Shown: in pieces, positions 1 to 64,000 of the stretch
Position numbering within the stretch: the first letter of the stretch is position 1
How the letters are laid out: the number at the start of each line of letters is the position of its first letter
NCBI GenBank assembly: GCA_003290165.1
Contig: QNQO01010662.1
Span: 62,001 to 126,000 of the forward strand
Origin: Berberis thunbergii
Taxonomy: Eukaryota; Streptophyta; Magnoliopsida; Ranunculales; Berberidaceae
Direction of reading: 5' to 3'
DNA: 64,000 bases
Notes under the pieces: generated by a model
The model's input: only the letters and a program-made list of their open reading frames with translations
Databases searched by the model: none
What the model was told of the DNA's origin: nothing
Made by a program: the position numbers and the translations under genes

Positions 1-1077
1 CGTCAAGCTCAAATTTTTTTGTACTATTTATTATTACTATTATTCTTCTTCTTCTCATCATCATAAATCATGCCTTCTCATGTTTTGTTTATTACTCTAT
101 ATTTAACTTTTTGTTGAAAAGGTGAGGCTACTTTGTTTGCTTACCAAGCTTAGCTTTCAATTTCATTTCCGCCTATGAGTTTATTAATTTTGTTATGCAA
201 TATATATACTGAAACTGATATTTAGATTCTCTACCACAACTTTATGCTAGTTTTACTACTGAAAACTCTCGATAGATAGAGCTGAAATTCATACATGAGT
301 CTCCCATCTCAATAGTTGATGTGTTTTTTTATGCATTGTAATTGTTCATATTTTAGAGTTATCAACAACTCTAAATACTAGTTGCCACATAGGTGAATCA
401 ATAAATTCTAATATGTAACGTTTGGTTAAAAAAATTGTTGGTTTCATGTCAAATGTTGGGCCACGTTCAAGACCAAGTTGCTAAGTCTAGCAAAACTTCC
501 ACAGTAAATGCTATGAATGTTTAAAGGAAGCATATTCGTGCTGCCTCGACTGATAGTTGGAGAGGTGAGGCAAATTCAGAAGTTCATTTTTTATTAAAAA
601 TAATGGATATATCAAGTTGGTGGTTTTCTGAAAAAAAAAATAATAAAATAAACAAACAAAATATAGTTATTCTATGATGTTCATCATTGAGTTTTTGGTT
701 TTTTCCTTGAGTTTTTTATCGTGTGGGTAAGCATATATTAATGACATTACCAAATAGATTTACTTGGTATTGTTGGGACATTGACGTTTTACAATTTTAA
801 ATGAGGGATGTATTTTATTTAGTTCGTCAGCGCTCCCCAATTGGACATTATTGTGATAAATGGAAGAATGTTACCTGATAAGCTGGGCATTTTCAGATTG
901 TTGTTTTATTTGTTGGATATTTTTTTGCGTGATAAGAAAACATGAGTATCAGATGCTTTAAGCTATGAGTTTGTTACTTCCCATTTTACTTTTACTTGGA
1001 TTGTTCTTGACGCCCTTAGAATGCCTGTGCACACATGTTATGGTTGATGGCAATCTTTTTTGTTTTCTAACAAGCAG
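1..1077. other. Element 1 interior without a recognised gene
   Basis: This AT-rich stretch has no exon I can assign. The VIM exons that should precede the first recognised one (the start of the SRA domain) are not seen here, so the captured copy seems 5'-truncated or its upstream part is too decayed to read by eye. Confidence 0.4.
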
Positions 1078-2960
1078 GTCTTACAAGGAGAAGAGATCTT
1101 CCTATGCCCCATAAATCGGTGTACGTTATGATGGAGTCTACCGTATTGAGAAATGTTGGCGGAAGGTTGGGATTCAGGTAAATTAGATGGTCCTCAACCC
1201 TAATTGTATGTGGTTGTTCGAATGATAATGTTAGTGACTTCTTTGCAATATGGTTTGTTTCTAGTGGTTTAAAGTTTGTCACTATTTGTTTGTTCGGTGT
1301 GACAATGAACCTGCACCCTGGACCAGGTTTGTGCCTTTTTCTAATCCCCCTCCCTTTATTTAATTGGTAGGGATGATCTCTAATTTATTAAACTTTAAAC
1401 TGCAGCGATGAGCATGGAGATCGACCTAGACCATTGCCTAAAATTCCAGAGCTGAAAAAAGCTACGGACATTACTGAACGGACAGAGGAGCCATCATGGG
1501 ATTATGACGTGAGTTGCAGCGTATTTCTTTTGATTAATTTCATGAAACTGATTATTAATACCTTTCTATATGAAGAACAATTGCATATTTTCAGTTTTCA
1601 TCTGCATCTTAACATTTATGTTATATTTTTTTGTAGATTGTTTTTCCTTTTATCTACTTGGATAGATTAGTTTTCCCGATGCTTTTCAAATTCATTTATT
1701 GCACCATCAACGGAGGAAGAAAATGTTTGGAAATGGAAGAAGCCTTCCCCTGCTAGTAAGAAATCAGTGGACACTGCTAATCCAGAGAACCAAAGGCCAG
1801 CAAGGGTAGCAAATAGGAGATCACAAAACCTGTCTGTAAGAGAGAAACTACTAAAAGGTTTGGTTTCTTCTCTCGTTGTGTATTTAACCGTGAAACACTC
1901 GATGACCCACTAGTAGGCTTTTAGCCCTTTTAAACTAGTCACACCTTATATACTTTTGTTTTTAATTTCTAATGCTCAGTTATTTAACTTACTAGATATT
2001 TGATCTTGCAGAGTTCATCTACTCTATTTGTCGAAAAGTTCTGACTCTTCCTCTTACAACTTCATGTGCTCACAACTTTTGCAAACATTGTTTAGAAGGT
2101 GTCTTTGCTGGGAAGTCTTTTTTTAGAGAGAGAGGTGGTGGGAGCTGGAGTCTTCGTGCTCAAAAGATTGTCATGAAATGCCCTACTTGCAAAAATGACA
2201 TCTCTGACTTCCTTAAAGATCCAAAGGTATGTAATTCAAATGTCTCGTGTAAATAATTGTGAAGCCATGCTCCTCATTTTCACTTTTCAGCTGAGGTAGA
2301 GTGACAATGGGATCCTAAATGTTGTGCAACTTGCCTAATACTGATTATTGCAACTTATACAGTATAAATTGCAGCTGTTTTGGCTTAGCTAGCTTAGTCA
2401 AAGTAATTTTTCAATATAATTGTCATGCATATGATTAATTGGGGTACATACCAGCTGGAGATTAAATATATAATCCTATTGTTTCTACCATCTAATGTGT
2501 TGTTTTCTGTGGAACATGGTTGTGACAGGTGAATAGAGAGGTGATGGGTATGATAGAGTCCCTGCAACGAAAGAAAGCGGAAGGGGAACAAAATGCTGAG
2601 GTGCAGGAAACCGAAGATAACTATGAAGTGGAGGAAGATGAAGAGAATGCTGAGGTGGAGGAAACTGAACAAAATGCCGAGGTGGAGGATGAAGATGTTG
2701 AAAATGAAGTGGTAGAAGATAGCGAATCTTAGGATCCTCCAAAACGGCGTAAAGTTGATAGTATGGACGGTAAAAAATCTGAGAGAGAGGGGATGAAACC
2801 TGTTTTTGTGAGAGGAGAAATTGAACAAACTGAAGTTGACATGAAAGAAGCTAATACCCCACAACAGAAATCCATGGATGAGGTTGAAGATGTGTTGGAT
2901 TCGCTGAGCAAGATTTCAGATGATGGAAATGAATCACCTTCAAGCCTTCTCCATTTGTGA
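1078..2960 (+). pseudogene. Captured VIM/ORTHRUS (UHRF-type SRA-RING E3 ligase) fragment, broken
   Basis: Family role: VIM/ORTH proteins bind hemimethylated CG through an SRA domain and ubiquitinate through RING domains, supporting maintenance DNA methylation in the nucleus. Exons read at 1078-1177 (SRA, motif RYDGVYRIEKCW), 1265-1326 (VRCDNEPAPW), 1406-1508 (DEHGDRPRPLP), 1716-1857, 2012-2226 (RING) and 2529 onward (acidic tail). Phases are consistent and borders are GT/AG. The copy is broken: TAA at 1112-1114 lies inside the SRA domain where the family has Glu. The first RING zinc ligand is Tyr (TAC at 2020-2022), while the other seven ligands are kept. TAG at 2730-2732 stops the frame just before the basic motif PPKRRKVD, after which the same frame stays open to 2960. 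Only the C-terminal part of the family protein is present. Identification is from remembered family motifs, not a search. Confidence 0.85.
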
Positions 2961-4139
2961 TCTGATGGTAACAACTTGCAACGATCTGATCTAGATGACA
3001 AGGTACGGTCGTCCTGCAAGTGTTTTTTGTATATGGGGGATTTGACATTTAAATCACCTTTATATGGCAGCTTCATAATTTACTCTGATTACAAGAATGC
3101 CATGCATTGCCATTTTGTCTAAGATGAATGTCCTTTTGGCATTTTGTTTCCTTCAAAAAAATATATGACAGTTGAAAAGTTGAATATTTCACAGAAAGGA
3201 ATGAAATTATTATAACTATGTTTACTTGTATTTGTGTCGAACTCAAAAGAATCTGTGTAGATTTGAGGTTTAGTTAACTTTGCAGCTTTTATTTGGTATT
3301 TCTGCTACTAAATGGTGTTGGCGTTAGATGAACTCATCGAATCTAAACTAGGTGTGGTATGCTGCTAAATATTGATTAGGATGTTCTGGAAATTTATCTA
3401 ATAGAACTACACCTTGAATTTGTCTAATTGTCGTTGTTAGTCTGAAGTACTTGTGTACGTTTATTTCCACTGACAGTCTTAATAATAATATGGATTGTAC
3501 GAGTTGCCAATAATGATGGTCTTTTCATGCTACATTTTAGAGTACAGTTGTTTTCATGGTTGAATGTGCAATCACAGTATTTAAGATCGTAACTATCCAC
3601 CGGGAATGGTTGGGTAGGTGTACATGGAGGGTCCAGAGAGCGTCAATAATGTGGTGTTTCAAAAGGAGAGTATGTAGTAAACCCAAGCCATAGAAGGAAA
3701 TATTGATTAACTACATTTTGTGAATAGATTGAATGATGTTCTGTTATATCTGCTTTTGTAGATACTCATAATGTTGCTCATATCATGTCATGAACTGCTT
3801 TTGAAAATTTTCTATTGCGAACCATTAAGCGTTGTTTTGAGCCTTTGCAATGACTTTTCGTGTGTATTATATTGTCATCTATTAATCGTTTCATTAAATT
3901 GGTACCATGAGCTGTTATGTTTGGCTTACTAGTTATCTTCTCGGTTGCAAGCAGGAAAAAGTTTGTGTTTATTTCAATATAGTGTACATTTTCAATATAG
4001 CTAGTGAAGGTTCACTGTAAATTTACCAAAGTAAAAATTCACATTGAATGTTACGTTAATTGCAGTTACAAATTATGCTTTTGAGTTCAAAAAATGTTGA
4101 TAATTTCATCCAACTCTATTGATGTGCCTTCTAATGCAG
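2961..4139. other. Non-coding spacer between captured fragments
   Basis: AT-rich sequence lying between the VIM fragment and the next exon-like segment. I see no domain, repeat or structural RNA in it. Confidence 0.4.
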
Positions 4140-4418
4140 GTTGTAGAAGGTCCAAACGAGTAACATCAATGCCTTCTATTCCAGAGGAGCAAGTGCAGTA
4201 GATGACAGAACTAGAAAGTGTAGCTCATGAACTAACAATACTCCTTAGGGGTGATAGATCCAAAGAACGAGCAAAACCACTTGGCAGTACACCAGCCAAA
4301 CAAGTGTCTCTATCCTTGGAAGAACAAAAAGTAAGACCACTACCTCTAACTGCAGATCTTGAACTTATTTCGGCTTCAGAGATCCAAATGGATCAACGCC
4401 TGGAGGCACACTGCCAAC
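4140..4418 (+). pseudogene. Unidentified exon-like fragment inside CACTA element 1
   Basis: A segment with a good acceptor (TAATGCAG before 4140) and donor (GTAAGT from 4419) reads in one frame apart from TAG at 4199-4201. The translation is hydrophilic and polar, with patches such as RRSKRVTSMPSIPEE before the stop and LTILLRGDRSKERAKPLG after it. I do not recognise the family. Its position between captured VIM and CER3 exons, on the same strand, suggests another captured piece of a host gene. It could instead belong to an element-specific protein. Confidence 0.45.
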
Positions 4419-4916
4419 GTAAGTAACACGACATACACATGTTAATTTGTTCCTTTTTTTTTTTGATAAACTAAAAAAAAACAGGGAAAAAAATACAAGC
4501 ATAACTGGAGATTAAACATTTTTTTAATATTAGAATACATGCATCATATGGTTATCATGGTTTTCAGTCAACTCAAATATATAATTTCTCCTTTGGGACA
4601 CCTTTGTATAGTTCAAAAGAAGCTTGTCTGTTACATGAACCTCTAGGTGCATTGGCTCCATATATAGCTTCTTTACCCTCGTCAACCCAACTTGAGTAAC
4701 AACTTTTTGCTTTTCTTTTCTGCTAGCTACCTATCTGTAAGAACCAATTATGTGTTAATGATGGGAGGGAAAATCAGTCACATATTTTTTTTTCCAAAAT
4801 TTTAATGTATCCTTCTCTACCTCTGCCTGAACATATATGGTATATCTATATCAACTTGCATTTCAATAGATGAGGAATTTTACATTTACCAGTACTATAT
4901 TGGACACCCTATGCAG
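4419..4916. other. Spacer with no recognised feature
   Basis: Intron-like AT-rich sequence between the unidentified exon and the first CER3-like exon. No coding signal was found. Confidence 0.4.
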
Positions 4917-5749
4917 GTACTACAACCTGCATCACACTGAGATGGACACTAATTTATGCCTATTTATGCCTCTCTACGATGCCCTAGGAAACACAATAAA
5001 TACAAGATCATGGGCTCTGCAAAAGAAATTAAGTTCGGGTACATGTTCTAGCTACAACTCTCTTCGGTAAATTTCCCCAACTATCTCTATATATGACTTT
5101 CTGAATGATCTCATTTAATGTTAAACCAGTATATAAAGGTAAGTGCATCAGGCTGCTTGGTGTGCACATGACATATTAATGTAAAGAATATTAACTATGC
5201 ATTAGTGGTGTTAACTATGCAGGAAAAATTGCAAGAATACCGGATTTTGTATTCTTGGCCCATGTTGTAGATTTAACAGCAACACTGCATGTGCCCTTTG
5301 TACTAAGGTCATTTAGTTCGGTGCCCTTCCAGACGAGGTTGTTCTTGTTGCCACTATTGTCAGGTGCTTTTGTAGCAATGCTGGTCATGTGGGCTTCATC
5401 AAAGACCTTCTTGATATCTTTCTACAAACTTAGGAATCGACTTCATCAGACATGGGTCGTCCCTAGGTTTGGTTTTCAGGTAGGTGCATGCGCATATGAT
5501 TAATTACAACTGCCTTCTTATTTTATTATTTTGGCTTTGCTTTTGCTGAATTACTAAATACCATTTTGTTCACTAATTTATTTCCAACATGTATGGGTCA
5601 TTGTCTCCATATTGACATCAAATGGTCTATCCCACATGCAGTACTTTTTACCATTTGCCAAGGATGGCATCAATCACCACATTGAATAAGCCATTCTGCG
5701 AGCTGATAAATTGGGTGTGAAGGTCATTAGTCTTGCAGCATTGAGCAAG
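4917..5749 (+). pseudogene. CER3: Captured CER3/WAX2-like fragment, broken
   Basis: CER3/WAX2 is an endoplasmic-reticulum membrane protein that works with CER1 in making very-long-chain alkanes for cuticular wax. Three colinear exons are readable: 4917-5038 ([20 protein letters not shown], part of the fatty-acid-hydroxylase-like His-box region), 5223-5479 (PDFVFLAH, a hydrophobic membrane stretch, then [14 protein letters not shown]) and 5642-5749 (YFLPFAKDGIN, then AILRADKLGVKV). Borders are GT/AG and phases match across all three. The third exon has TAA at 5687-5689, between IE and AILRADK, so it cannot encode a working protein. The rest of the family protein on either side is absent. It lies in the sense orientation of CACTA element 1. 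Confidence 0.88.
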
Positions 5750-6491
5750 GTCCCTTCCTTCTCATGTTTCTTCTTTTTTATATGTTTTAATTTGTATGTG
5801 TGCATTGTTCTGGTGTGTCTTCATATTCTGTTAGTTGTTGATTATTTGGTTGCTGTTCTTTGAACTAATGGCTCCACTAGTGTAAGATGTCAAATTGAGC
5901 AAACAGTTGTCTAGCTAGGAGATTGTTAGATGTAATCAAATTTGTTGCCATGTTATAATTAAGTTTTCCATTACTAATTAGCTGGTGATGGATGCATATG
6001 CATAATTTATGCCCCTGGCATAATTGGTCGGTCAATAGTTATTAGGACCTGAGGTTGATCACCCCGTGCAATTTAAAGCATGGTACATTGTTGCGCACAT
6101 GGCAGGAAGGCCAATTCATAAAATGGTTTGGTTGCTTGTTTAAGAGGGTAGATTTTAGTAGGTATATTGCATCATGTGTGGCGTTAATTATTCATAGTTC
6201 AGTGCGAATTAACATACTAAATCCAAATCCTTTTTTTTTCTTTCTTCATTTGCTAGATGATTGAATTACTCATGTTGAAAAAACCATTAATTAATTGATA
6301 TGAGTAACCAATATAATTAAAATGCATTTAATTGCTCTCTTAGAGTCTGAATGAATCCATATTTTCCTTTTGATTTGGTCACCACAATTTCAGGTCCTCT
6401 TCTACAGCTTTAATCTAAATGCATAGAATGTATCTGAAATTTGTCCCCGTACTAAACATTAACTTTACTGTTCCTTTCTGACCTGCTTCAG
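5750..6491. other. Spacer between CER3 fragment and last exon
   Basis: Nothing recognisable. The next CER3 exon is not found here, so the captured segment ends near 5750. It resembles intron sequence leading to the acceptor at 6489-6491. Confidence 0.4.
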
Positions 6492-6656
6492 TGGAGGATT
6501 GAAATGACTCATCACCACCGCAATGATCTTCGGAACAACACCAACCATGACCTTGTTCAAAACTCAAATGAGAATGTTGAGGAGTTGAACCAACATCAAC
6601 AAATGAAGGAAGGGGAGAACCAAAGCAATGAAGTTGGAAACTGGAAAGGATTGTGA
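6492..6656 (+). CDS. Terminal exon-like reading frame of CACTA element 1
   Basis: After the acceptor CTTCAG (ending 6491) the frame is open for 54 codons to TGA at 6654-6656. The product is strongly polar: it begins WRIEMTHHHRN, is rich in Asn, Gln, His and Glu, and ends NEVGNWKGL. The stop lies just upstream of the 3' block shared by all three CACTA elements, which fits the 3' end of an element transcript. I do not recognise the family. It may be the tail of a transposase accessory protein, the last exon of a captured gene, or chance. Confidence 0.35.
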   Translation, partial: WRIEMTHHHRNDLRNNTNHDLVQNSNENVEELNQHQQMKEGENQSNEVGNWKGL

Positions 6657-6714
6657 CTCGATGTAATACATTATCTTTATTATTCAACTGAAATAAATGT
6701 AGTATGATCTTTAT

Positions 6715-6875
6715 ATTTTGATAGATATTGTGACTCGATGTAATACATTATCTTATTAATTACATTACTTTGCCTCCATTTATGAAAATATTTAAGTTTG
6801 GCACATTTAGATTTTAATTTTCTAGAAATAAAACTTATAAGATGTTATAAAAAGTCATTTGATAGCACTTGATGA
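6715..6875 (+). repeat. 3' internal block shared by CACTA elements 1, 2 and 3
   Basis: The block runs from GTGACTCGATGTAATACATT through TAAGTTTGGCACATT to AAAAAGTCATTTGATAGC. It matches the reverse complement of 17685-17830 in element 2 along most of its length, and the reverse complement of about 58258-58385 in element 3 in part. In each element it sits between the captured fragments and the subterminal repeats at the same (3') end, so it marks common ancestry and gives each element's orientation. The core GTGACTCGATGTAATACATT also occurs at 6654-6673. Confidence 0.75.
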
Positions 6876-6879
6876 GTGC

Positions 6880-7206
6880 TATAGAAAAAAGGGCCTTGAG
6901 AAACGCTATAGAAACTAATACAATAGCATTTGTTAAATGTTACGTGAGGGAAGACAATAGCGTTTCAGAAATGCTATGGTATAAACGCTATCATATAGTA
7001 TACCAAAGCATTTCTGAAACGCTATCGTATAGTATACCATAGTGTTTCTGAACGCTATAAAAGGTCAACTTACAATAGCGTTTTAAAAACGCTATAATAG
7101 ACCTTGTATCTATTATAGCTCCGACAGACACAGCGTTTTCTAAAACGCTATGGTATCCTACCATAGCATTTTTTAAACGCTATTAATGAGCATTTTTCTT
7201 GTAGTG
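6880..7206 (+). repeat. Subterminal inverted-repeat array and terminal repeat of CACTA element 1
   Basis: Many short copies of AGCGTTT...AAACGCTAT occur in both orientations between about 6880 and 7195, followed by the terminal sequence ending CTTGTAGTG. In En/Spm elements such arrays bind the element's regulatory transposase protein. The array is AT-rich and each pair of units can form a hairpin. The motif is unlike that of elements 2 and 3. Confidence 0.75.
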
Positions 7207-17283: not shown

Positions 17284-17645
17284 CACTACACCAAAAATGG
17301 CCATTAGCAACGGTTTTAAACCGTGGGGGTAACCCATTGGCATGGCTTAGAACCGTGGGCTGTAGAGGCGTCGCTAAATCCCTAGTAATGGCTAAAAACC
17401 GTGGCTAAAATATTAGCAACGGTTTTATCTCGAGGACGGTTGATGATTTAGCCACGGTTCTAAGCCGTGGGCAGGAGTAGTCGGGGCTTAAAATCGTTGC
17501 AAGTTTGGCCACGGTTTTAAGTCGTTGCAATAGCTTTAACAACGGTTTTAAGCCGTGGCCCAGTACTAGCCACTGTTATAAGTCGTGGCAAGGTAGCCAC
17601 GGTTTTTAGCCGTTGCAATAATTAGCCACGGTTTAAAACCGTGGC
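17284..17645 (-). repeat. 3' terminal and subterminal array of CACTA element 2
   Basis: After the terminal repeat, about 15 copies of the palindrome-like unit GCAACGGTTTTAAACCGTGG occur in both orientations. The first 95 bp closely match the left end of element 3 at 57791, including ACCGTGGGCGTAACCCATTG-like sequence. Such arrays are the expected binding sites of the mobilising protein. Confidence 0.85.
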
Positions 17646-17684
17646 AAAATTTATTTTTTTTTAATAATTTTTTTTTTTGCTGTC

Positions 17685-17830
17685 AAATGACTTTTTATTA
17701 CATCTTATAAGTTTTATTTCTAGAATATAAAAATTTTAATGTGCCAAACTTGAACATTTCCATGAATGGAAGCAAAGTAATTTTCAATGTATTACATTGA
17801 GTCACAAAATCTATCAAATAATATCTCAAA
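17685..17830 (-). repeat. Shared CACTA 3' internal block, element 2 copy
   Basis: The reverse complement reads GTGACTCAATGTAATACATT ... AAGTTTGGCACATT ... CTAGAAATAAAACTTATAAG, closely matching 6727-6870 of element 1. Confidence 0.75.
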
Positions 17831-17875
17831 TACAATGACACACACACAAACTTAAATATCTCAAATACAAAGAAA

Positions 17876-18056
17876 GTGGAACAATGTTGCTGCTGCTGCG
17901 AGAGACGCAATGTTGTTGCTGCAAGGGACGATCTGCTGATGATGCGAGGTACGCACTGCTGCTGCTGCTGCGAGGGACAAACTGCTGCTGCTGCAAGGGA
18001 CGAACTGCTGCTCTGTGAGGGACGCACTGATGCGAGTTTGCTGCTGGTCGCAAACC
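17876..18056 (-). repeat. CTG/CAG-rich repeat, copy 1
   Basis: Units of CTGCTGCTGCGAGGGACG-like sequence are present, and nearly the same block is repeated at about 19850-20030. On the minus strand it reads as Ser-, Ala- and Gln-rich low-complexity sequence (SKLASVRPSQSSSSSL). Confidence 0.75.
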
Positions 18057-18544
18057 AGAGTGCGCTCTGTTTCACTGCAGAGTACCCACTGTCCTGGCAG
18101 TTATGATCTGCAGATTTTTGAATGCAATCTGGGTGCATGCTGCATTTCACTGCTTGCACTCATTCCTGCTGCAGGTCTTGGATTCCAAGCAAGTACATTA
18201 CTTTAACATTTGGAGAACTATTAGTAAATATGCAGTACAAAAATGAAACAGATAAAACTAAAGTTTCATCACCTGAAAACATTTGGAGTGTATGTTCACT
18301 TGTTTCAAATGAAAGAAACATGACAAATTCATTCGAAAGATGCTATCATCAAATGCTTCTCTATAAACTTAAATGAGTTTGAGAATACCTAAGTTCATTA
18401 ACTTGACAACTGAAAAGTGTTCCATTAAGCTCATGTGGTTCAACAAAAAAGACTAACTTTATGGTTAATAAGAAAAAATTTCCCTAGGCGAGTTAGAAGA
18501 AAAAAACAACTAGAGTATCTGCTACAGTACACATGCAAACATAC

Positions 18545-18674
18545 CTCGTTTGCTGGGCGTCCGTAGTCAACAGGATCTCTTCTAGTAATTGCTTCCAAAA
18601 CAACAACCCCAAAGCTATATATGTCACTCTTTTCATTCAAAAGTCCAGTATTTGCATATTCGGGTGCAACATAT
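18545..18674 (-). pseudogene. Captured receptor-like kinase exon
   Basis: A single exon with acceptor CCAG before 18674 and donor GTATGT after 18545. It encodes kinase subdomains [26 protein letters not shown], then [18 protein letters not shown] and RPANE. The APE and DxxSFG-type motifs are intact. The match is to plant receptor-like cytoplasmic or LRR-type kinases with [10 protein letters not shown]. It has no catalytic loop or N-lobe, so no kinase activity is possible from this piece. It is in sense orientation within CACTA element 2. Confidence 0.85.
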
Positions 18675-18890
18675 CTGGAAAAGTTATGTCACATTGGTAT
18701 CAAGAAGTATCAAGAATGTATTCATTCACAGGAGCAGGAAGTATCAACTCATCTTCACACAAATCATGCCAGACAAATCCATTTTTGTAACTTCTACTTT
18801 CACAAATCCACCACAACAATGATAACAATCAAATTTCTAATAAAATACAATTTACTGGAAAACCAAAACCAGTTCTTATAACACTCTTAC

Positions 18891-19239
18891 CTCTTACAAG
18901 ACCACGAATACAACGAAGGCATGCCACTACCTCCCAAGACATTAAGCCGATTAATCACATCTACAAAACATACTAAATTTCAGCATTCCCAAATTCAAAT
19001 AGAAATATAGTATAACACAGTAATAAACAAGCCAGACACATACATCTCAAGTGAAGACTTTCGGGCGAAGAGAGTGCAACCTCAATGAAATGTGGATGTT
19101 CAAGGTGGTGATTTCTGCAGAGATAATAAACAACAACAACTTTTCTATTATGTCGCTTCGGTGATGGCTCCGTCCAAACTATAGCCCTCTCTGGACTAGT
19201 TTGCATGTACTTGTTCATTCTCCCCTCCATTTCTCTCAT
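18891..19239 (-). pseudogene. Captured SOSEKI (DUF966) N-terminal fragment
   Basis: SOSEKI proteins are plant polarity proteins with an N-terminal DIX-like oligomerisation domain. Exon 1 (19044-19239) starts at the natural ATG (MEGRMNKYMQTSPERA, preceded by an in-frame MRE) and reads VVYYLCRNHHLEHPHFIEVA. Exon 2 (18891-18960) reads VINRLNVLGGSGMPSLYSWS. The exon 1 donor is TGTATG where GGTATG would restore the family residue, so splicing would change Asp to Tyr. The rest of the protein is missing. Confidence 0.85.
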
Positions 19240-19849
19240 TGTTAAATCACCTCAAACTTAAACGGATCTAAAACAAATACATCTTAGTCACTTTAGCCTT
19301 CAGCTTCACATTTCATCATTAATCACAAGAAATACAATCTACCTAAGACTTATAACTGACTAGAAGTTCTATTGTCTTGCATTAACTAAAACCTAGCAAA
19401 ATTTGCTTTCAAATCCAACTAATTGAATGAACTTCAGCTCATAATGTCAAATTCCATCAGATCCTCTAAATAATAGCTCAAAAAGACCTATAAAACTACT
19501 ATATGAGCCTCATCAGATCTAATTTCACTCGTAAAACCTATTTAGTAATCCCATACAAAGGAATGCAACACAAAAACACTACAAATCAACTGTTCAAAAC
19601 AGTTTTCAGTAAAAAAACTCCAATATGGAAGCTAAGTTGTTATTATTTGACATTCATGGATACAAAAGAAGAATATCCAATATGTCTAGCAAAATGGCTT
19701 TTGACCAATGGAAGCTTGTCATCTATACAAAATATGATAGATTCATGCAATATGATATGATATGAGAGACGCAATGCTGACTAACCTGTGTTGATTCAAG
19801 TTTTCCCTCTTGGTCTGATTCTATGGGCAGGGCCAGGGACGAATTGCGA

Positions 19850-20030
19850 TTGATGTTGTTGCTGCTGTGAGAGACGCAATGCTGCTGCTGCAAGGGATGA
19901 TCTGCTGATGATGTGAGGTACGCACTGCTGCTGCTACTGTGAGGGAATCACTGCTGCTGCTACGAGGGACGAACTGCTGCTCTGCGAGGGACGCACTGAT
20001 GCAAGCTTGCTGTTGGTCGCAAACTCGATG
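19850..20030 (-). repeat. CTG/CAG-rich repeat, copy 2
   Basis: This direct duplicate of 17876-18056 is fused on its right to the TGA-factor fragment, so that the minus-strand frame runs from the DOG1-domain part straight into the Ser/Ala-rich repeat sequence and stops. Confidence 0.75.
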
Positions 20031-20190
20031 ATTTCAGAGGGCTTGAACCCACCCATCCACAAAAAGTAGTGCTCCGCCGGAGTCTTCCACATGCCTGAAA
20101 TGAGATGAAAGAGACCGGCTTTCATGAGCATTGCCTTCAAGCCCATCATCTTATCCAAGTGTGCAAGGCAGTTGTCCACGTAAAGTTGCA
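20031..20190 (-). pseudogene. Captured TGA bZIP factor, DOG1-domain fragment
   Basis: The minus strand encodes LYVDNCLAHLDKMMGLKAM, then GLFHLISGMWKTPAEHYFLW and MGGFKPSE. This is the signature of the C-terminal DOG1 domain of TGA transcription factors. TGA proteins bind as-1 elements and the NPR1 co-regulator. The bZIP part is not present. The frame continues into the CAG-type repeat (IIEFATNSKLASVRPSQ) instead of the normal domain, a novel fused tail that ends at a stop near 19934. Confidence 0.85.
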
Positions 20191-20191
20191 C

Positions 20192-21290
20192 AAATTAAAC
20201 ATTATGAAATTCAAATATAACATCCTCAATTTCTAACATGACCAGATAGGAATACCAATTTCTAATCCCCACTGTCACCAACAAAGCAATGTGACCACCC
20301 ACAATTATAACATCCCCATTAGACATTACCACTCCCTAATCACTTTTTGGTTTTGCTTTGTGACTTGTACATCCTAGCTTCAACCCTTTAGCAGGAACAC
20401 ATGTTCAAAGTTCATACTTTCAAGAAAAAGAAGAAGAAATCTGTGTATGTCAGGAAGAAAAGTAAATAACTAACATTCAAACTCAAATCATTAACATTAT
20501 ATTTGTTATGATTCATTTCACACTTGAGTGGAAAAAAATATGCAATAGTAAAAAAAAAACATTAACTAGCCAATATTTTTCCTCAAAAGCTAGACTTGTT
20601 AAAAGATATCAAAACTAATTAGTTAACTATGATAGTATCGTTCCACCATGTTTCCAAAGTTGATATATGTTCATTAAAAATATCCAACTCTTTTATTAGT
20701 GTTCATTACAAATAACAAATCCTCTTCAGGCTGCTTTTATCAGTTAAACTACTTATTCTTATCGCCTTTTGAATGAGAAAGAAAAATCAACTTGTGTTTA
20801 TACTGACTGAGGAACCTTTCAAGGTTCAGTGAATCATATTGGTTTCATTGCTGGATGTTATTTAGCTTTTGATGTCGTATTTGTTTCCCTCTCTAGACTA
20901 TATGTCACTCTAATTTCTACCATTTTATAAATGTTGGTTTAGTATGGAATACTTAAGCTGTATTGGACTTGACATCAGCTAGTAAATAATCATATGATCT
21001 AGCCATTGACAAAAAGCACATGAAAAGCACACACATATAAACATCTTAATTAACCAAAGGTTTCAGCGGATACACTTTTGTCACACAGAGCACACATGTC
21101 AGGCACAGTGTGATACATCTGTTTGTGTTTTGAGTTCCATAATAGATTTTTCTAATCAGTAAAAAATGCAAATCTAAAAAGATAATTCATGACATGCTTT
21201 ATAAATTGAGGGTTGTAAGAGAAATGTGTTGAAATAGCCTCCATGACTAAATTTAACTAGTGGATGTTTGAGATTGTGCATGTAACATAC
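20192..21290. other. Spacer within CACTA element 2
   Basis: AT-rich sequence with no exon recognised, between the TGA and SNF2 fragments. Confidence 0.4.
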
Positions 21291-22747
21291 CCTGTGAGAG
21301 TCTTTGCAAGAGCGCACTCGTGATCCTTTAATCTATGTCCTTCATCAATAATCATGTAGTGCCAGCTAATTTTCTTAAGAAATGCTTTGACTTTTTCCCT
21401 CATTATCAAATCATAGTGGGTGGTCATCACGTACATTGAATTTTCCCTCCCCCGCATACTCCTCCCTCGTTGGTTTCCTTTCATCTTGGCGTCCGTCATA
21501 CAGAACTGCACCAATGCTGCATCCACAAGTATGTTGAATATAACATATACTGACAGCATAATAGGAGATTAAAAATAAAAAAAATAAAACCAAAACCAAA
21601 ACTCACTCTACCTAGGAGCCCAGGTTGCAAATTCATGAACCCAGTTAGGGAGCACATCCTTAGGAGCAACTATTAAGTATGGTCCAGTTACACCTTTGTT
21701 CTCCATGAGATATGCAATCAATGATATGGTTTGAATTGTCTTCCCTAATCCCATCTCATCAACCAAAATGCCATTTAGGTTGTTGTTGAACAAAGAAAGC
21801 ATCCATTGAAGTCCTTCCAGCTGGTAAGGTCTTAGCTCTCCACCTTGAAGCATAGACGGTTGCTCAGTAACCTGTAGAGTTGTCAATGATGGAAGTTAGA
21901 TGTTACCTTATAGTAGCATGTCATAACATTATCATAAAAGCCAGTGATATGACAACTAACTCGATGTCACATGCAAAATCAACCCAAACATGCATATAGG
22001 GCATAAAGGATGAACTGCTGAAGTTATTGGAAGATAAAATTCAAAGAAAATCAACAGAGGTAGAGACTCAAAGTTTACCTTTTCCTAATTTGAGTGAATA
22101 ACAAAATTATATTGCCGTTGTCCTTCAAGTAAATCATTTGTCTTAACATACCTATCCGAATCTAAATCAGTGACATCTACATCTTCTTCTTCTTCTTCTT
22201 CTTCTAGTGGCATATCTGTTGGGCTTTCCCTCTTAGAAGTGGACAACTGAGACAGATCATCAGCTTCTACGTCTTTTAGAGGTTCAACATCATTAGTATG
22301 TTTTGCATCCTTTTGCCTTTGAACAGCAGCTCCCAGACAAACAAGAAGATCATTAGTTTTTCCAAAAAGTGTTGTCAATCTTTCATTCTTGCTCTCCTCA
22401 ACCATTCGCATGTATGCTTCTTGACAATCAGCTTTCAACGCTTAATATAAAAACCGTCAGGGTTTACAATCCTAGACACTATTCTCAAGTCAAGTTTTCA
22501 AATAAGAACTCGTACATCCACTGAGAAAAGTAATGCAAATATTAAAAATCACCTCTTCCTCCAGTTTCTTGCGCTGATTATCATCACCATCCATTGCATA
22601 GGCTTCTCCCATACCATAAAGGACATGTGGACGACGCAATCTACTCATGCCCCAGTCGAACAATTGCTTGTCAGGACATGCACACGTTTCACGTAGCCAG
22701 TACTCTGTGCTCACCTCAGACCGAACCTTGTTTTGTAGCTCTTTAAG
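21291..22747 (-). pseudogene. Captured SNF2 ATPase (CHR12/CHR23, MINUSCULE-type) fragment
   Basis: SNF2 ATPases remodel nucleosomes. Four colinear exons on the minus strand read: 22747-22553 (YWLRETCACPDKQLFDWGM), 22440-22079 (ending with an acidic run and [12 protein letters not shown]), 21871-21612 ([19 protein letters not shown], Walker A region [14 protein letters not shown], then [13 protein letters not shown]) and 21516-21291 ([16 protein letters not shown], then box [12 protein letters not shown]). Borders are GT/AG. It is broken by an in-frame TAG within HSN*EK near the end of the second exon and by a frameshift between GEGKFNV and THYDLIM in the last. The C-terminal helicase lobe is absent. 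Part of the same gene recurs in CACTA element 3. Confidence 0.88.
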
Positions 22748-26860: not shown

Positions 26861-26939
26861 GCTTCTTTCGTCCTCTCCTTCTTTAGTCCTTCTTCTTCCC
26901 TTGTGAGAATTTGTTTTTCAACAATTTTTTTCGCCAAAG

Positions 26940-34149: not shown

Positions 34150-34155
34150 CACCAG

Positions 34156-57789: not shown

Positions 57790-57790
57790 T

Positions 57791-58205
57791 CACTACACCA
57801 AAAACCCCCATTAGCAACGGTTCTATACCGTGGGCGTAACCCATTGCCACGGCTAAGAGCTGTGGGCTATAGAGGCGTCGCGAAATTCTTTGTAACGGCT
57901 ATAAATCGTTGCTAAACATTGTAGCAACGGTTTTATGCTTGAATAGGGGTGATGATTTTCAACATTTAGCCACGGTTTTAAATCGTTGCAAGAAGAATAG
58001 CAACGGTTTTTAGCCATGGCAAAAATAGCCACGGTTTTAAGCCGTGATAAAGTATGGATACTAGCAACGGTTTTAAGCCGTGTCTCATTAAGTAGCAACG
58101 GTTTTAAGCCGTGGCTAAACAGTGAGAAATAAACCGTGGCAAACCTGATAGCCACGGTTTTTAGCCGTTGCAATAGTTAGCCACGGTTTAAAACCGTGGC
58201 AAATT
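57791..58205 (-). repeat. 3' terminal and subterminal array of CACTA element 3
   Basis: Terminal CACTACACCAAAA followed by many AGCAACGGTTTTAAGCCGTG units in both orientations, as in element 2. Confidence 0.85.
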
Positions 58206-58257
58206 TTTTTTTAATTTAATTAATTAATTTATTTATTTATTATTATTTTATTTTATT

Positions 58258-58385
58258 TTGCTATCAAATGACTTTGAGTCATTGAGTCAAAATCTATCAA
58301 ATAATGGAGGCAAAGTAATGTAATTAATGGAGGCAAAGTAATGTAATTAATAAGAAAATGTATTACATTGAGTCAAAATCTATAC
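58258..58385 (-). repeat. Shared CACTA 3' internal block, element 3 copy
   Basis: The reverse complement reads GACTCAATGTAATACATT and ATTAATTACATTACTTTGCC, the latter (with CTCC) present twice in tandem, then AAAGTCATTTGATAGC. It lacks the middle AAGTTTGGCACATT part present in elements 1 and 2. Confidence 0.7.
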
Positions 58386-58406
58386 ATGGTACACACTAAT
58401 TGTGAC

Positions 58407-60195
58407 CTGAAGGGTCCTCATGTTATGCCAAGTGAATGTAGCCTTGAACGCACTAGAAACAACGTGGATTGTCTTGTTTGCTTCTGGAGTCCTCTTCACA
58501 TATATCTTCTTAAGATAGTTTGCCGCACAACTCATGGCACATCTGCAAATTGGAAACAAAAAAACAAAAATCTTGAATTATATCTTTTCTCACTGCCAAT
58601 TATTTCAGATGCACATGAATAGAAGCAAATGTATGGCCAAGTTAAGTCTTCTTACACAAGATGGTAAATTATTAAGCATGTCACACTAATTTGGACATTT
58701 AAAAGGCATTCCATTGTATTGACAAAAGTGAATGGCAGTTCAAATACTGAGATTATCTCATCGAAGATTGAAAATATATAAATAAAGTTCAATGCCTACA
58801 AACTAACAAGAACTAAATGGCTTTAGCACCTAAGAATCTGAATATTTCTGATGATTCCCATGGGAAAGAAAACTTATTATGTAGATTAGTTTATTCAACG
58901 TGGAAAAAAAATTGGGGAGGAGAACTTTAAATTGATGGCATAAACAACAGAGGATATATGCTACCATGCACAAGACTACAATAAAGTCGGAGTACTATGG
59001 AGAAATGTATGTGAAATTATTACGTTTGTGCAAGAAGAGGTAAGAGTCGCCTTTGATGAGTAGGGTAATCAAGTAATAGAACCTCAGGCCCATTTGGTGT
59101 TACAGAGAATGCCCACCTTGTCAATGCGTACCTTATGGCAATAGCTAAACTAATCTGTGGTAAAAAATGAAAATCATAAAATACAGATTACGCGAAGTTT
59201 TGCAGCCAAGGTTGAAGGAGTGCAGATCCATCTTCAAGATGAAAGAAAATAGATACAAACACATTTACCTTTGCCTGGTTTACTGCACTTAGAGAAATGG
59301 TCACACGACCAGATGTCAGTGGGGCCAGGAATGCTGCAAATCTCTGAAAAAAAAGAAATAGATTGAACTTTTTTCTTAAAATGGCTAGCGTCAACTGAAT
59401 AGGACCACTATTGTTTCTAGAGAAGCTGTCAAGAGTTGGAGTTAGAAGTAGTTGTCGCCTAATCTGGATCTTTTATAGCACTCAAATATTGACCGTCAGG
59501 TGATACATCAGCAACTGAATTCAACAAGTTATCTCGAGGGATTCGGACATTGTCAAACCTGACATAAAGGCAGCACCATGATGAACTCAGAAGCATATAT
59601 ACGCAGTTAAAATGAGAATGGATTGGGAAACGAAATAAATGAAAGATAAATTTTTTTTGCTATTGTACCATATACGGCCATTATCAACACCATTCAGTCC
59701 AATTTTATGACCACAGTCTGCAATACGGACGTTTGGGCATACATTCCCTTTTTGATCTCTAATCTGAGCTATGAATGCACTCCCGTACCAAACCATCTCG
59801 ACATCAATTGGCAACTGTCACTAATAATGTCTTGATCATCAAAGTACTCCCGTACCTTGGCAGCTCCTCCAATCCAGTACTTTTGAGCTGATTCACAAGG
59901 TGTGTTGATGATAAACTCTCCAGTATTTGAGTCATAAGTTGTGATTGTTTCAATTCCTCTAACCTGATACATATGGATCACAATGCAATTAGTTACAGAG
60001 GATCAAGAAGAAAATAGAAGAAATAAAACAAGCTATCTTAGTAGCAATTGAATCGATCATCTTCACATACATTACTTCCATGTCCCAACTCCGACATTGC
60101 AAAACAACCCTTGACCACATATTTTTCAGTATCCCTCAACCATTTCTCATGATGCTACTGCGTACCAAAGAATTGGACAGCACCACCCTTGTGAC
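58407..60195 (-). pseudogene. ACX3: Captured acyl-CoA oxidase 3-like gene segment, seven exons
   Basis: Acyl-CoA oxidases carry out the first, FAD-dependent step of peroxisomal beta-oxidation. Exons in gene order: 60195-60071 (GGAVQFFGTQ, HHEKWLRDTEKYVVKGCFAM, SELGHGSN), 59963 to about 59860 (VRGIETITTYDSNTGEFIIN, TPCESAQKYWIGGAA), 59790-59669 (AFIAQIRDQKGNVCPNVRIA, DCGHKIGLNGVDNGRIW), 59558-59459 (FDNVRIPRDNLLNSVADVS), 59343-59269 (RFAAFLAPLTSGRVTISLSA), 59154-59024 (AIRYALTRWAFSVTPNGPEV) and 58542-58407 (KKIYVKRTPEANKTIHVVSS). In-frame TAG at 60157-60155 and TAG at 59461-59459 disable it. Both protein ends, including the peroxisomal targeting signal, are missing. Confidence 0.9.
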
Positions 60196-61489
60196 ATGAT
60201 GAGAGAGAGCATGTGCTATGTAAGTTTCTTCTTTGTGGTGTGCAAATTACACAAATAACAAAACAAACTAAAAACATGTAATGTAATCATCTTGATTCCC
60301 TAATCTTAGTTCCATTTTGGAAGTATTTTCTTGTTTGGGAAGCTTACTGGCTCGATAGATCAAGATCCAAGCTAACCAGTAACATGGGAAACCTATTTGT
60401 GTTCCTACAAAATATAAATACAAAATGAGGTACAAATTGATCAATTTAGTCTAGTTCAAGATCTTATAATCACAGATTTCAACATGATAAACTGGATATT
60501 TCATCCAATCAGCCAACCTATTGTATGTGTAGGCTTGACACCTACTGTGCCCAGTTAGAATCCATTGTACATCCAAAGAAGGACAACAATAGTATCAAAA
60601 AAAATAGATAATGGAAAGAACATGTAATGGATTAGAAACTTCAAGGGTACGTATCGCAACAGCGGTGTCCATATTCACTGATGAAAGATCACCTTGGTCA
60701 TCCTAACACAGTTGTTTAGTTGTCATAATACAGATAGGTCGAATACTAGCAATTATCTAGAGGAACAATGTCAATGCAATGGGACCCAAAGAGAGAGAAG
60801 ATATTATATTATTAGTAGCACGTTTGAATCCCTAAATCTTCTAAAGCCCGACTTTATGTGACCTGGCATAACAATACAAGTGGTAAACGTACACACTGTA
60901 TCATACCATATCATTAAATGCATGAGTGGAAGAAGTCGAGTGTTGCTTGTTTCTTATTCAATTTACTTCCATAGTTCCATACCAACTTTAGCAATCTTCC
61001 TAATTTTCATAGATTTGAGTATATGCTTTACTTTCTTAGTCAGAAATTTATTCTCATGGTTGAATCTCATACTTCTATACCCAAAAAGTGCTCGAGAGGA
61101 ACCAAACCCTTTGTATGGATATTCTTACATACCCCGGTAACAACTAAGTCACCGACATATACAACTAATGAAATAAAGCCCTAGAAACTGATAGAAGAAT
61201 ATTGCATGATCGTATTTACTGGTTTGATTCATGACATAAGAGCTAACTGAAGTATCCAATCTAATTGGTTACTCAATTCCATTCTTATTATGCTGAACAA
61301 AAAAAAAAGTAAGAAGAAGAGGAAAAAAACACATTCTAGATAAAGCAATCAAACTTCAGTATCCTCAGGGCATGTTTTACATGAGAGAGCTGAAGTGAAG
61401 AAACTAAAAGGCTAGATTAATGCTCAAAATTTATCACTTCAACTAACCACATGATAGGTAGAATATTTGAAGAGAATGTAAAGGTACCT
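60196..61489. other. Spacer within CACTA element 3
   Basis: No exon recognised. AT-rich with small non-specific frames. Confidence 0.4.
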
Positions 61490-61680
61490 GATTCCGGTAT
61501 GAATAGAAATCATTGGATCCAAGAATCGTAATATCAAGACCTGCATGAGAAATTATGTTAGGACTAGGATACTCGAAGATCATAATCTTAAACAAATGAA
61601 CAAAAAGCACCAGCAATACCTTGCAAGAGCAGCTTCTGTAGTACAACACCAAACTGGGCAACAGTTTCAACCTGAATGCA
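61490..61680 (-). pseudogene. Unidentified pair of captured exons
   Basis: Two short exon-like pieces on the minus strand have AG/GT borders and compatible phase: VETVAQFGVVLQKLLLQ (about 61672-61620), then LDITILGSNDFYSYRNQ (about 61543-61491). The joined frame is open. I do not recognise the family. They lie between the ACX3 and hydrolase fragments, in the same orientation. Confidence 0.4.
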
Positions 61681-62183
61681 CAAAGAAAATGCGACTTTTT
61701 AGGACAAGTATCCAATATTGGAGTTTCTACCATCCTGACAACAAAACTTACTTTGTCAAAAAAACAAAAAAAATTTGAAAGGAAACTAACAAAGACCAGG
61801 CAGCATATACTTATTTCCATTCAAAACTACTTAAAAAATCAGCATAGCTGGAACTAGAAGGGATAAATGGAAGCATTACAGGCAGCATATACTTAAAAAA
61901 TCAGCATATCTGTACTGTATACACTATACAGACAACAACTTGAAATGCTTAACAATAGGATGAACATTAGAACATGCAGACCTTAGAACATGCAGCATCC
62001 AAACTTCATGAAATCCTACCAATTTTAATACCAGGCAGACCTTAGAACAATAGGTAACTAGTTATAGAACTTGCTTAGAAGTCATTTATAGATCATTTGT
62101 GATTAAAACTTGGCAGCCTCTTATTTTGAAAGAAAAGATTTATTACAGAAAAGATATAAGATATTTAGAGAAAAATGTCATAC

Positions 62184-62273
62184 CCTTGATATCATCCACA
62201 GTTACGAATGTAGGATGGCACATGACTGCAGCTTTGATGTCACCTGACTTTGCAAGTTGCACAACTATCTTGG
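62184..62273 (-). pseudogene. Captured dienelactone-hydrolase-like exon
   Basis: After acceptor CCCAG, the exon reads KIVVQLAKSGDIKAAVMCHP then TFVTVDDIK before a GTATGA donor. It resembles the family of plant dienelactone hydrolase / endo-1,3;1,4-beta-glucanase-like alpha/beta hydrolases around the turn after the nucleophile. The catalytic Cys, Asp and His are not in this piece. Confidence is moderate because it rests on one exon. Confidence 0.55.
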
Positions 62274-62329
62274 CTGGGAATCAAAACTATATATAGTTAG
62301 GTCTAAATTAAAGCTACAAGTATGGATAG

Positions 62330-62578
62330 TATGACAACTAACTCGATGTCACATGCATGCAAAATCAACCCAAACATGCATATAGGGCATAAAGGATGAA
62401 CTGCTGAAGTTATTGGAAGATAAAATTCAAAGAAAATCAACAGAGGCAGAGACTCAAAGTTTACCTTTTCCTGAATTGAGTGAATAACAAAATTATAAAG
62501 CTCAAGCAAGCATTTCGTCTGCAGATCTTCACCTCTACTTGAACATAACTCTGTTTCAATGTTATTAAAGTAATCCAT
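62330..62578 (-). pseudogene. Captured SNF2 (CHR12/23-type) pieces fused together, related to element 2
   Basis: The frame reads RGEDLQTKCLLELY joined directly to NFVIHSIQEK and a GTAAAC donor. In the family the first part precedes the second by well over 150 residues, so an internal stretch is deleted at the joint. The exon end and about 150 bp of the following intron (62330-62498) match 21949-22115 of element 2 almost base for base. Here the frame is SIQEK, whereas element 2 has SN*EK. The two elements thus share a captured ancestor, and the stop arose in element 2. Confidence 0.8.
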
Positions 62579-62719
62579 GAGAAAGAATCAACACATCACT
62601 TGAACATAACTCTGTTTCAATGTTAGTAGGATTACAATTCTTGATGACAATATCGACCAATTAGATAGCAGTAGTTTAGAAATATATCAAGAAAACTCGG
62701 CAGGCCGAGGGAATCTTAC

Positions 62720-62810
62720 TTGACAGCCTGATTAATAACTTCAAAGGGATTTGTCCCAGCATGCATACAGACCAGATGAAGCCCTTGATTGGTCTGAACA
62801 TCTGTATCTC
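62720..62810 (-). pseudogene. Captured raffinose synthase / galactosyltransferase exon
   Basis: The exon with acceptor TTTACAG and donor GTAAGA reads GDTDVQTNQGLHLVCMHAGT and NPFEVINQAVK, the region before the catalytic barrel in raffinose synthase and SIP1/2-type proteins, which transfer galactose from galactinol to sucrose. The catalytic Asp residues are not included. Confidence 0.78.
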
Positions 62811-63278
62811 CTGTAAATAAATCAAGACAAAACACCAGAGTTGGTTTGGGTCCTCCATACCCATATCTTTCTTGCTTTTAAAATGGTGAATAGGTGACTA
62901 CTGATTTGGATTCAACCATGCCAGAACTTGGAAAAGTCTTTGAAAGATCTGGAATTATTATTTCTATTTCCTACATAAAGGGCCACCATAATCAAATCCA
63001 TAAAATAAGGAGAAAAAAAGTTTTAAAAATGAGATGCATCAAGTAAAACTTCATAGCTAGCAAACAAAATTGATGGAAGCATCATGTTCCTGGCATGCTC
63101 TAATATCAGATATACAAATATTGCATTCTTTCATGATGATGATGATGAATATGATGGATTCAACATCAACATATGCTCAGATGTAGGAAGTGGCATATTG
63201 TCAAAACCAAAGTTATGCATTTTAAATAGGAAGTGGCATGTTCTAATAAAAAGGTGCATAAAATAACAAGTGTCTTAC

Positions 63279-63398
63279 CTGCCTTGCATATTTGATCCTA
63301 AAGAGACCATAACGGATAACAGGACATCCTGCCTTACAGAGAGGATCTTCAAGAAACTTTTGATTATTGTTTCCAACATCTAGCATCACTGGAAGTAT
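63279..63398 (-). pseudogene. Captured NAD-malic-enzyme-like exon with unrelated tail
   Basis: After acceptor TTGTAG, the frame reads ILPVMLDVGNNNQKFLEDPL, the malic-enzyme motif near the NAD-binding domain (family usually DVGTNN). It then changes without an intron to CKAGCPVIRYGLFRIKYARQ, which does not fit malic enzyme, before a GTAAGA donor. A joint between two captured genes is likely. NAD-malic enzyme is mitochondrial and decarboxylates malate. Confidence 0.6.
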
Positions 63399-63538
63399 CT
63401 ACAATAAAATAACAGTAAACTGAGAGTACTTGTAATGGTATAATGGTATATGCAGCAGTATTCGAAAGCTGAAAGACATAATATATTGAAGAGAATTAAA
63501 AGTGAGACAAGCTCACACTTTATGTAAGAACATTTTAC

Positions 63539-63650
63539 CAAAGGTGTTCGTTTGTTGTTGTCTGCTTCATTCGGATCCAAACTGCGTCTAAGTAACTGGT
63601 GCAATAGAAGATCATCCCCTCTATAGGCACCGAAACATAAACCCATAAGT
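63539..63650 (-). pseudogene. Captured ankyrin-repeat exon of a SKOR/GORK-type K+ channel
   Basis: LCFGAYRGDDLLLHQLLRRS followed by LDPNEADNNKRTPL and a GTAAAA donor matches the first ankyrin repeat of plant outward-rectifying Shaker channels, where the ankyrin region is cytosolic. No membrane or pore part is included. The frame upstream of the motif is disrupted. Confidence 0.65.
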
Positions 63651-63715
63651 TATCAGGAAAATATAGTCATAGGATGTATAAAATGTTATTAAGATACAAA
63701 GTTTCACTCGTTTAC

Positions 63716-64000
63716 TTTGTGATAATGCAGTCGCAAGCTCCCATCCATTTCTCCATTTGGGTCTCAAATCCTCGTACCTAGAGTAAGCAAAGAACAGCTT
63801 AAGGAACCCCCCATATCAATGAAAACATACACAATCATGTAAGAGAAATTACGGAATTATGGATAGTAGAAGCAAATTGTTCACCTTCACAGGAACATTC
63901 CATTCAATTTATTCTAGCTTGGAAGCCAATGTTTTATTACGGCCACAAAAAATAATAATTTTCCCAATTGGCTTGCCTAACTCTTCATCAAACAGTGATT
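63716..64000 (-). pseudogene. Captured MGDG synthase fragment
   Basis: MGDG synthase makes the main galactolipid of plastid envelopes from UDP-galactose and diacylglycerol. The exon running off the window to 63885 reads GKPIGKIIIFCGRNKTLASK, with TAA at 63911-63909 just before IEWNVPVK. The next exon (63777-63716) reads VRGFETQMEKWMGACDCIIT before a GTAAAC donor. Both belong to the GT-B C-terminal domain. The copy is non-functional because of the stop. Confidence 0.82.

Follow-up and report, generated by a model that had tools for sequence, protein, structure and literature searches.

Gene-capturing CACTA elements with one-way cargo and shared modules in the genome of Berberis thunbergii

Introduction

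Pack-CACTA elements, as described for Arabidopsis, maize and rice in the accessible text of Gisby and Catoni 2022 (PMC8903248), have non-autonomous CACTA ends, a target site duplication (TSD) and sequence from several host loci, with the maize elements holding the most distinct loci. With its first set of terminal inverted repeats (TIRs), this survey gives 324 CACTA elements in maize and 75 in rice, and its Pack-CACTA elements are mostly low-copy; its wider set of 40,692 maize and 3,183 rice elements takes all superfamilies together. In this study, we analyzed 64,000 nucleotides of the Berberis thunbergii genome (positions 62001-126000 of contig C10592 in an assembly of 2.24 Gb and 11,732 contigs; hereafter the window), which hold three elements that are likewise non-autonomous gene-capturing CACTA (Pack-CACTA) elements. 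Two of them belong to one TIR family that, unlike the surveyed Pack-CACTA elements, is estimated to comprise about 9,000 intact copies, shares modules among its copies and carries its cargo in one direction. Cargo orientation is not among the features reported in the accessible part of that survey, which also gives a TSD of 5 nt for CACTA elements, whereas the TSDs found here are 3 bp long, as in the accessible text of PMC8978399.

Other described systems resemble these elements in part, again according to the accessible portions of the sources. Tgm-Express1 of soybean (PMC1947982) is a CACTA element that holds parts of five unrelated genes, exons as well as introns, and can give rise to chimeric transcripts through splicing of these fragments; however, it is a single 5.7-kb element with demonstrated expression, whereas the Berberis elements are known from sequence alone. 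Cactavine-5 of grapevine (PMC2528002) is a CACTA element with a captured host fragment in two copies, but this fragment opposes the transposase, whereas all fragments found here read from one end of the element (end A) towards the other (end B). Jozin of Chenopodium (PMC8978399) has TIRs, direct and inverted subterminal repeats, a 3-bp TSD and small captured fragments, but it keeps transposase domains and its small cargo lies outside the coding part. Maize Helitrons (PMC3288121) show a mosaic, stepwise build-up of gene fragments in related elements, but they represent another transposition class, in contrast to the TIRs and TSDs present here. No report of one-way CACTA cargo was found in the literature searched, the scope of which left out most subscription journals. 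The family described below goes beyond ordinary Pack-CACTA in its copy number, one-way cargo and module mosaics.

Results

Three CACTA insertions in the window

The window is plant DNA with a GC content of 36%, and the best relatives of its CHR12 and CER3 fragments (see below) occur in scattered flowering plants, none of them near-identical. Both ends and a 3-bp TSD were found for all three elements, the outer ends of elements 1 and 3 being located with flanking 10-kb stretches:

1..7206 in the window, continuing upstream to -1843 (9,050 bp), plus strand: element 1, with TSD GGG/GGG, right TIR and subterminal array
17284..27375 (10,092 bp), minus strand: element 2, complete, with end A at 27375 and end B at 17284
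57791..64000 in the window, continuing to 66306 (8,516 bp), minus strand: element 3, with end B at 57791

The ends of element 2 form a perfect 13-bp inverted repeat (CACTACACCAAAA), flanked by the TSD TAC at 17281-17283 and 27376-27378, and element 3 has the TSD ATT/ATT, with the window-side copy at 57788-57790. Elements 2 and 3 are members of a single terminal family (CACTACACCAAAA), each examined member of which has one end A (TTAGCTAC type) and one end B (CATTAGCAACGG type) (23 of 23 elements, typed by a script, with L035 left untyped and then typed by eye). Element 1 is of the CACTACAAG-type CACTA family, with its block-bearing end at 7206. With termini (CACTACAACAC / CACTACAAGAA) and a subterminal motif (AACGCTAT) unlike those of the other two elements, it belongs to a second CACTA family, and the assignment of all three elements to one family was rejected for it. 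Its empty site, with the flanks joined, resembles the adjacent uninterrupted tandem-repeat unit. The sequence-only reading of this DNA had proposed three CACTA elements occupying about 23 kb; all three are real insertions with CACTA TIRs and TSDs, and they make up 7206 + 10,092 + 6210 = 23.5 kb of the window. Its bounds for element 2 (17284-27375) were correct, whereas those for elements 1 and 3 were not, as these extend past the window (to -1843 and 66306).

Arrays of direct and inverted subterminal repeats, a hallmark of CACTA elements, are present at the four ends tested:

17284..17660, minus strand: end B of element 2, TIR and a subterminal array of ACGGTTTTAAGCCGTGGC-type units, 10 motif matches in 17284-17684
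26960..27375, minus strand: end A of element 2, TIR and subterminal array, 12 motif matches
57791..58205, minus strand: end B of element 3, TIR and subterminal array, 14 motif matches
6868..7206, plus strand: right TIR and AACGCTAT array of element 1, 12 motif matches in 6860-7206

In Markov shuffles (2000 per end), the counts peaked at 3 (element 2, left), 3 (element 2, right), 3 (element 3, left) and 2 (element 1, right), and 36 of the 37 matches to the first motif set in the 64-kb window, as well as 12 of 13 to the second set, fall in the tested ends. A cluster of ACGG-type subterminal motifs was also seen in L011, at window coordinates of about -17500 to -13500; it is perhaps another element with altered ends.

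Next to the arrays lies a 3' block that had been described earlier as common to all three elements. This is true of elements 1 and 2 (151 bp), while element 3 has only a 57-bp part of it:

6717..6867, plus strand: 3' block of element 1, containing AATAAA, 83% over 151 bp to element 2
17678..17818, minus strand: 3' block of element 2, just inside the subterminal array, pairing with 6717-6867
58323..58379, minus strand: part of the 3' block in element 3, 57 bp, 93% to element 1

Element 2 also contains a 172-bp minisatellite-bearing stretch twice (17884-18055 and 19853-20024, 90% alike), and sequence near the second copy recurs beside CHR12 at several other loci.

With respect to insertion sites, element 2 is surrounded by a copia element, with a protease-side domain on the right and what looks by eye like the RNase-H end, and is flanked by repeats resembling long terminal repeats (LTRs) at 16489-16822 and 28948-29267 (86.5% alike). 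By eye, element 3 sits directly upstream of the gag of a Ty3/gypsy element, a single base from the start codon; the reverse transcriptase of that retrotransposon is at 55559-56113, and retroelement-like 5' sequence resumes beyond element 3. A second copy of element 2 is present on contig C1596 (98.9% identity over 4.5 kb). That the fragments are ordinary neighboring pseudogenes with coincidental CACTA ends, a doubt raised in the sequence-only reading itself, is extremely improbable, because the TSDs at all three elements, the LTR retrotransposon hosts of elements 2 and 3, the second copy of element 2 on another contig and the location of the CHR12 gene elsewhere indicate insertions rather than local pseudogenes. 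The TSDs and hosts, together with the CACTA ends and host fragments, support the Pack-CACTA (transduplication) class proposed in that reading. Multiple gene fragments are also carried by Helitrons and Pack-MULEs (accessible text of PMC3288121 and PMC8903248). Capture by an element of either kind is scarcely credible here, given the inverted CACTA termini, the 13-bp TIR and the 3-bp TSDs. Helitrons have no TIR and make no TSD, and Pack-MULEs have long TIRs and TSDs of about 9 bp.

Host gene fragments carried by the elements

The number of unrelated host genes represented in the window had been put at about 15. Fragments of 14 distinct donor genes have tool support (Pfam, PDB, protein search or tblastn), four of them weakly, as the kinase, UBR1-type protein, raffinose synthase and malic enzyme fragments score below the Pfam curated cut-off:

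1071..2730 (span by eye), plus strand: UHRF1-like fragment, RING (9e-6) and weak SRA (0.038), introns kept
4918..5749, plus strand: ECERIFERUM 3 (CER3/WAX2), several exons, element 1; protein search E 3.9e-48 at 54% identity, exons by tblastn
18566..18679, minus strand: protein-kinase exon, element 2; PF07714 E 2.5e-4, under the curated cut-off
18703..19251, minus strand: SOSEKI (DIX-like) exons, element 2; PF06136 E 1.6e-22 and 6.7e-8 in two frames; 18703-18979 from Pfam, 18980-19251 by eye
20021..20188, minus strand: DOG1-domain exon, element 2; PF14144 E 3.3e-17
21287..22762, minus strand: colinear exons and introns of CHR12 (SNF2 ATPase), spanning residues about 166-579, element 2; PF00176 E 3.2e-35
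21948..22111, minus strand: CHR12 stretch common to elements 2 and 3, 95.8% over 168 columns
23778..23876, minus strand: UBR1-type E3 fragment, element 2; PF22960 E 5e-4 on the piece, under the curated cut-off
23901..24056, minus strand: ubiquitin-conjugating enzyme (E2 H type) exon, element 2; PDB 2.6e-9
25059..25813, minus strand: protein phosphatase 2C exons, element 2; PF00481 E 9.5e-5, 7.9e-11 with joined exons
58978..60181, minus strand: acyl-CoA oxidase exons and introns, element 3; PF22924 3.4e-10, best PDB 1.3e-11
62330..62551, minus strand: CHR12 deletion derivative, element 3; an exon part for residues about 149-166 fused to one for about 409-420 and intron sequence
62692..62835, minus strand: raffinose synthase fragment, element 3; PF05691 E 2.5e-4, 19.5 bits against a 20-bit cut-off
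63339..63395, minus strand: probable malic enzyme fragment, weak, element 3; PF00390 E 0.039, PDB E 0.026
63524..63652, minus strand: AKT1 potassium-channel ankyrin fragment, element 3; PDB 2e-10
63697..63995, minus strand: MGDG synthase exons, element 3, running past the window; PDB 7.9e-7, PF06925 6.3e-7 in L012

The joined UHRF1-like peptide of element 1 matches the Pfam RING family at 4.1e-7 and has UHRF1 as its best PDB match (8.7e-5); we take it to be of the VIM/ORTHRUS type of plants. A dienelactone-hydrolase-like piece near 62150-62280, read by eye, has no Pfam match and was not counted as cargo, and neither was a copia reverse-transcriptase-like peptide at 61070-61180 in element 3, seen by eye only. 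No Pfam transposase match (E ≤0.1) was present in the scanned stretches of the three elements, which for element 2 take in the sequence between its outer ends and, for the part of element 1 beyond the window, the sense strand.

Size of the terminal family

The genome-wide search with the termini, suggested in the earlier reading, was run, and it gave 14,295 + 14,208 = 28,503 exact copies of the 13-mer terminus, compared with 123 + 113 = 236 for the reversed control. The termini have no match in prokaryote contigs, and the single match in a viral collection was dismissed as chance, as it lies in a phage-like contig without BLAST similarity to the window. Among the 100 places listed, adjacent termini face inward in 38 pairs and outward in 37; they lie within 20 kb of each other in 32 of the inward pairs (median 9.9 kb) and in 11 of the outward ones. 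Extrapolation yields about 9,100 intact elements, amounting to 96 Mb or 4.3% of the genome; this figure is based on two contigs, one of which (C1) is richer in termini than the average (16.4 vs 12.7 per Mb).

Of these 32 close pairs, which lie on the two contigs at the head of the listing, we sampled 21 (17 single-stretch pairs and 4 of the 14 two-stretch pairs), and a perfect TSD is present in 20 of them. No stop-to-stop open reading frame (ORF) in the 21 elements exceeds 276 aa, and a single Transposase_24 match (4.4e-5) occurs among their sense ORFs; the idea of autonomous copies in the sample was rejected accordingly. Host cargo is present in this sample too, with host-like Pfam families in sense ORFs and in read-through frames. 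The transposase family PF02992 is abundant in the genome, where all 150 scored matches, of 7,809 first-look candidates, lie over the cut-off; no transposase gene was linked to the family termini.

Cargo reads from end A to end B

Every host fragment detected reads from A towards B. On the A-to-B strand, T outnumbers A and G outnumbers C in all 23 family elements, a set that includes two close relatives (L033 and L036) and one element without a TSD (L040), and element 1 shows the same skew when read towards its block, giving a total of 24/24. Among the 353 non-tied 500-bp windows, 314 have T>A. Pfam searches with the 150 longest sense stop-to-stop ORFs of the 21 elements detected 19 families (E ≤0.001), 18 of them host-like and one Transposase_24, whereas 146 of the longest antisense ORFs of the same elements yielded no family; for L035, whose ORFs were sorted by hand, four were moved into the sense set, replacing its four shortest. 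When sense frames were scanned with read-through in five elements (L025-L029), 10 host-like families were detected, and none of nine antisense frames of the three window elements has a Pfam match. Moreover, donor-splice motifs exceed shuffled sequence on the sense strand only (64 vs 35.6 in sense and 28 vs 30.8 in antisense).

Shared modules in new combinations

With shared modules defined by at least 80 bp and at least 90% identity, 21 of 23 elements share one or more interior pieces with one to five other elements. Interior matches sum to 25,896 bp in the same orientation and 0 in the opposite one (each pair counted from both sides). The interiors are nevertheless mostly unique within the sample, with a covered fraction of 0 to 0.43, L033 (0.90) and L036 (1.00) being the exceptions. 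Modules occur in new combinations across elements; for instance, L032 resembles L033 up to a point and L035 beyond it, the switch taking no more than a few bases. At the three junctions viewed by eye, about 1-3 bp are in common. The 11.7% overlap of interior bases corresponds to a module pool of roughly 1.4 Mb, if the sample is random.

The module that could be followed back to its gene is CHR12. The fragment in element 2 has 39 other scored places that are 93-99% alike (of 490 first-look candidates), and 12 compared CHR12 loci, element 2 included, form a series differing by internal deletions. In a search for the gene, in which 41 of 1,526 candidates were scored, the likely donor is C34:1985166-1989947, which matches residues 284-422, 506-579 and 695-900; the captured copies listed end at about residue 580, whereas C34 continues to 695-900, and later CHR12 exons occur alone at C5167, C35 and C5178. 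Donor location, also suggested earlier, thus succeeded for CHR12 only. Eleven long copies (element 2 and 10 loci, with L021 omitted as a near-duplicate of L020) are 87-89% alike to 1.3 kb of the C34 gene over exons and introns, demonstrating capture at the DNA level with introns kept.

Element 2 is 88.1% and the short piece of element 3 84.5% identical to C34, while the two elements are 95.8% identical to each other, and independent capture of CHR12 by elements 2 and 3 was rejected for this reason. Since the copies are closer to element 2 than to the C34 gene, a single capture followed by spread of the module would be the simplest explanation. Over their first 126 bases, the ends of elements 2 and 3 are 84% alike, below the shared cargo (Fisher p = 0.0008), which fits a CHR12 module moving between element backbones but is only supportive, as subterminal arrays may evolve faster. 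A separate locus, C2105:101398-102975, aligns without a break to residues 12-554 of CHR12, contains a single stop and looks like an intronless retrocopy.

Other features of the window

Outside the three elements, the window contains a young copia element at 31135-35971, whose LTR-like ends are 97% identical and whose gag, integrase-side and reverse transcriptase domains are fragmented. Part of a gene with a malectin-like domain occurs twice (36067-37145 and 43204-44194, 74% alike, with the domain found in the first copy), and copia-type integrase sequence lies between the two copies. Open frames with DUF7746 are present at 48693-49980, with a zinc-knuckle motif seen by eye; they look like a coat protein of the endogenous pararetrovirus type. 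A 309-bp sequence at 51944-52252 resembles a miniature inverted-repeat transposable element, with 79-bp inverted arms and the ends CACTACACC and CACAATACC, and has no exact TSD.

Discussion

We consider it likely that these CACTA elements, with their distinct ends A and B, capture host genes by break repair, reassort them by template switching and keep sense cargo through A-to-B transcription; in this scheme the capture step and the cause of the polarity are inferred. The elements would be moved by CACTA transposases encoded elsewhere in the genome. Host DNA would enter as DNA in the course of double-strand-break repair, at junctions with little or no microhomology, and later break repair with template switching between copies would trim and reassort the modules. 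Transcription from A to B would favor sense, spliceable cargo, and antisense cargo would disappear, since it would end transcripts prematurely or yield antisense RNA to the donor gene.

The published route for Pack-CACTA, in which two neighboring insertions of the same orientation, after losing the ends that face each other, transpose as a single element together with the intervening DNA, is a possible but rather doubtful explanation of this family. This route was put forward for Pack-CACTA, and related Pack-TYPE families provide examples (accessible text of PMC8903248 and PMC13317346); it fits the same-orientation modules and the mosaics, the polarity then coming from a biased orientation of the surviving insertions inside genes. 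However, 19 of the 23 elements have no internal subterminal motif matches, although deletion can erase the remnants of ends, and the two module junctions examined in this respect join directly, with no terminal sequence between. It is unlikely, though conceivable, that the one-way cargo was set at capture, for example if template switching is coupled to the transcription of the donor gene, and not by later selection. The lack of any Pfam family in the antisense ORFs agrees with such an origin, and selection alone should leave some recent antisense captures; on the other hand, the opposite orientation of the Cactavine-5 fragment (accessible text of PMC2528002) indicates that a CACTA element can hold antisense cargo, so that a single cargo direction does not apply throughout the superfamily.

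Several observations weigh against break-repair capture followed by A-to-B selection, or against the family picture on which it draws. The skew is not uniform, as 39 of the 353 500-bp windows have A>T, nor is it confined to elements, since the inter-element stretches of the window give 16 T>A to 4 A>T and 29 to 30, one non-element flank thus being skewed too. Acceptor-splice motifs lie above shuffles on both strands (589 vs 509.6 in sense and 446 vs 406.8 in antisense), and the Pfam matches of the ORF searches are pooled over the sampled elements. Longer elements are under-represented among the 21 sampled pairs, L040 has no TSD, and the junctions inspected by eye are only three. Module sharing could partly be repeated capture from one donor, although CHR12 argues otherwise in its own case. 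A role of the 3' block in polyadenylation is weak, because its pieces were found by BLAST in only 10 of the 21 sampled elements (mostly <60 bp, and near end B in all 10) and only 10 of 23 elements have AATAAA at a distance of 350-900 bp from end B. The AATAAA counts of 118 in the A-to-B and 287 in the B-to-A direction are partly due to the T-richness of the sense strand.

Taken together, the family of about 10,000 copies, the finite module pool, the sense-only cargo and the orientation-preserving exchange between elements may constitute a genome-wide exon-recombination system, a tentative reading to which we give somewhat less than an even chance. For the question of how cut-and-paste transposons acquire host genes, this family supplies many junctions that could separate tandem fusion from break-repair capture; whether its direction bias arises at capture or through selection is likewise testable. 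The annotation of such a genome is affected as well, since a large number of its predicted genes could represent cargo of transposons. If the exon-recombination reading is true, the genome would hold thousands of one-directional chimeric exon cassettes, and if these are transcribed and spliced, they would represent a large natural experiment in exon shuffling.

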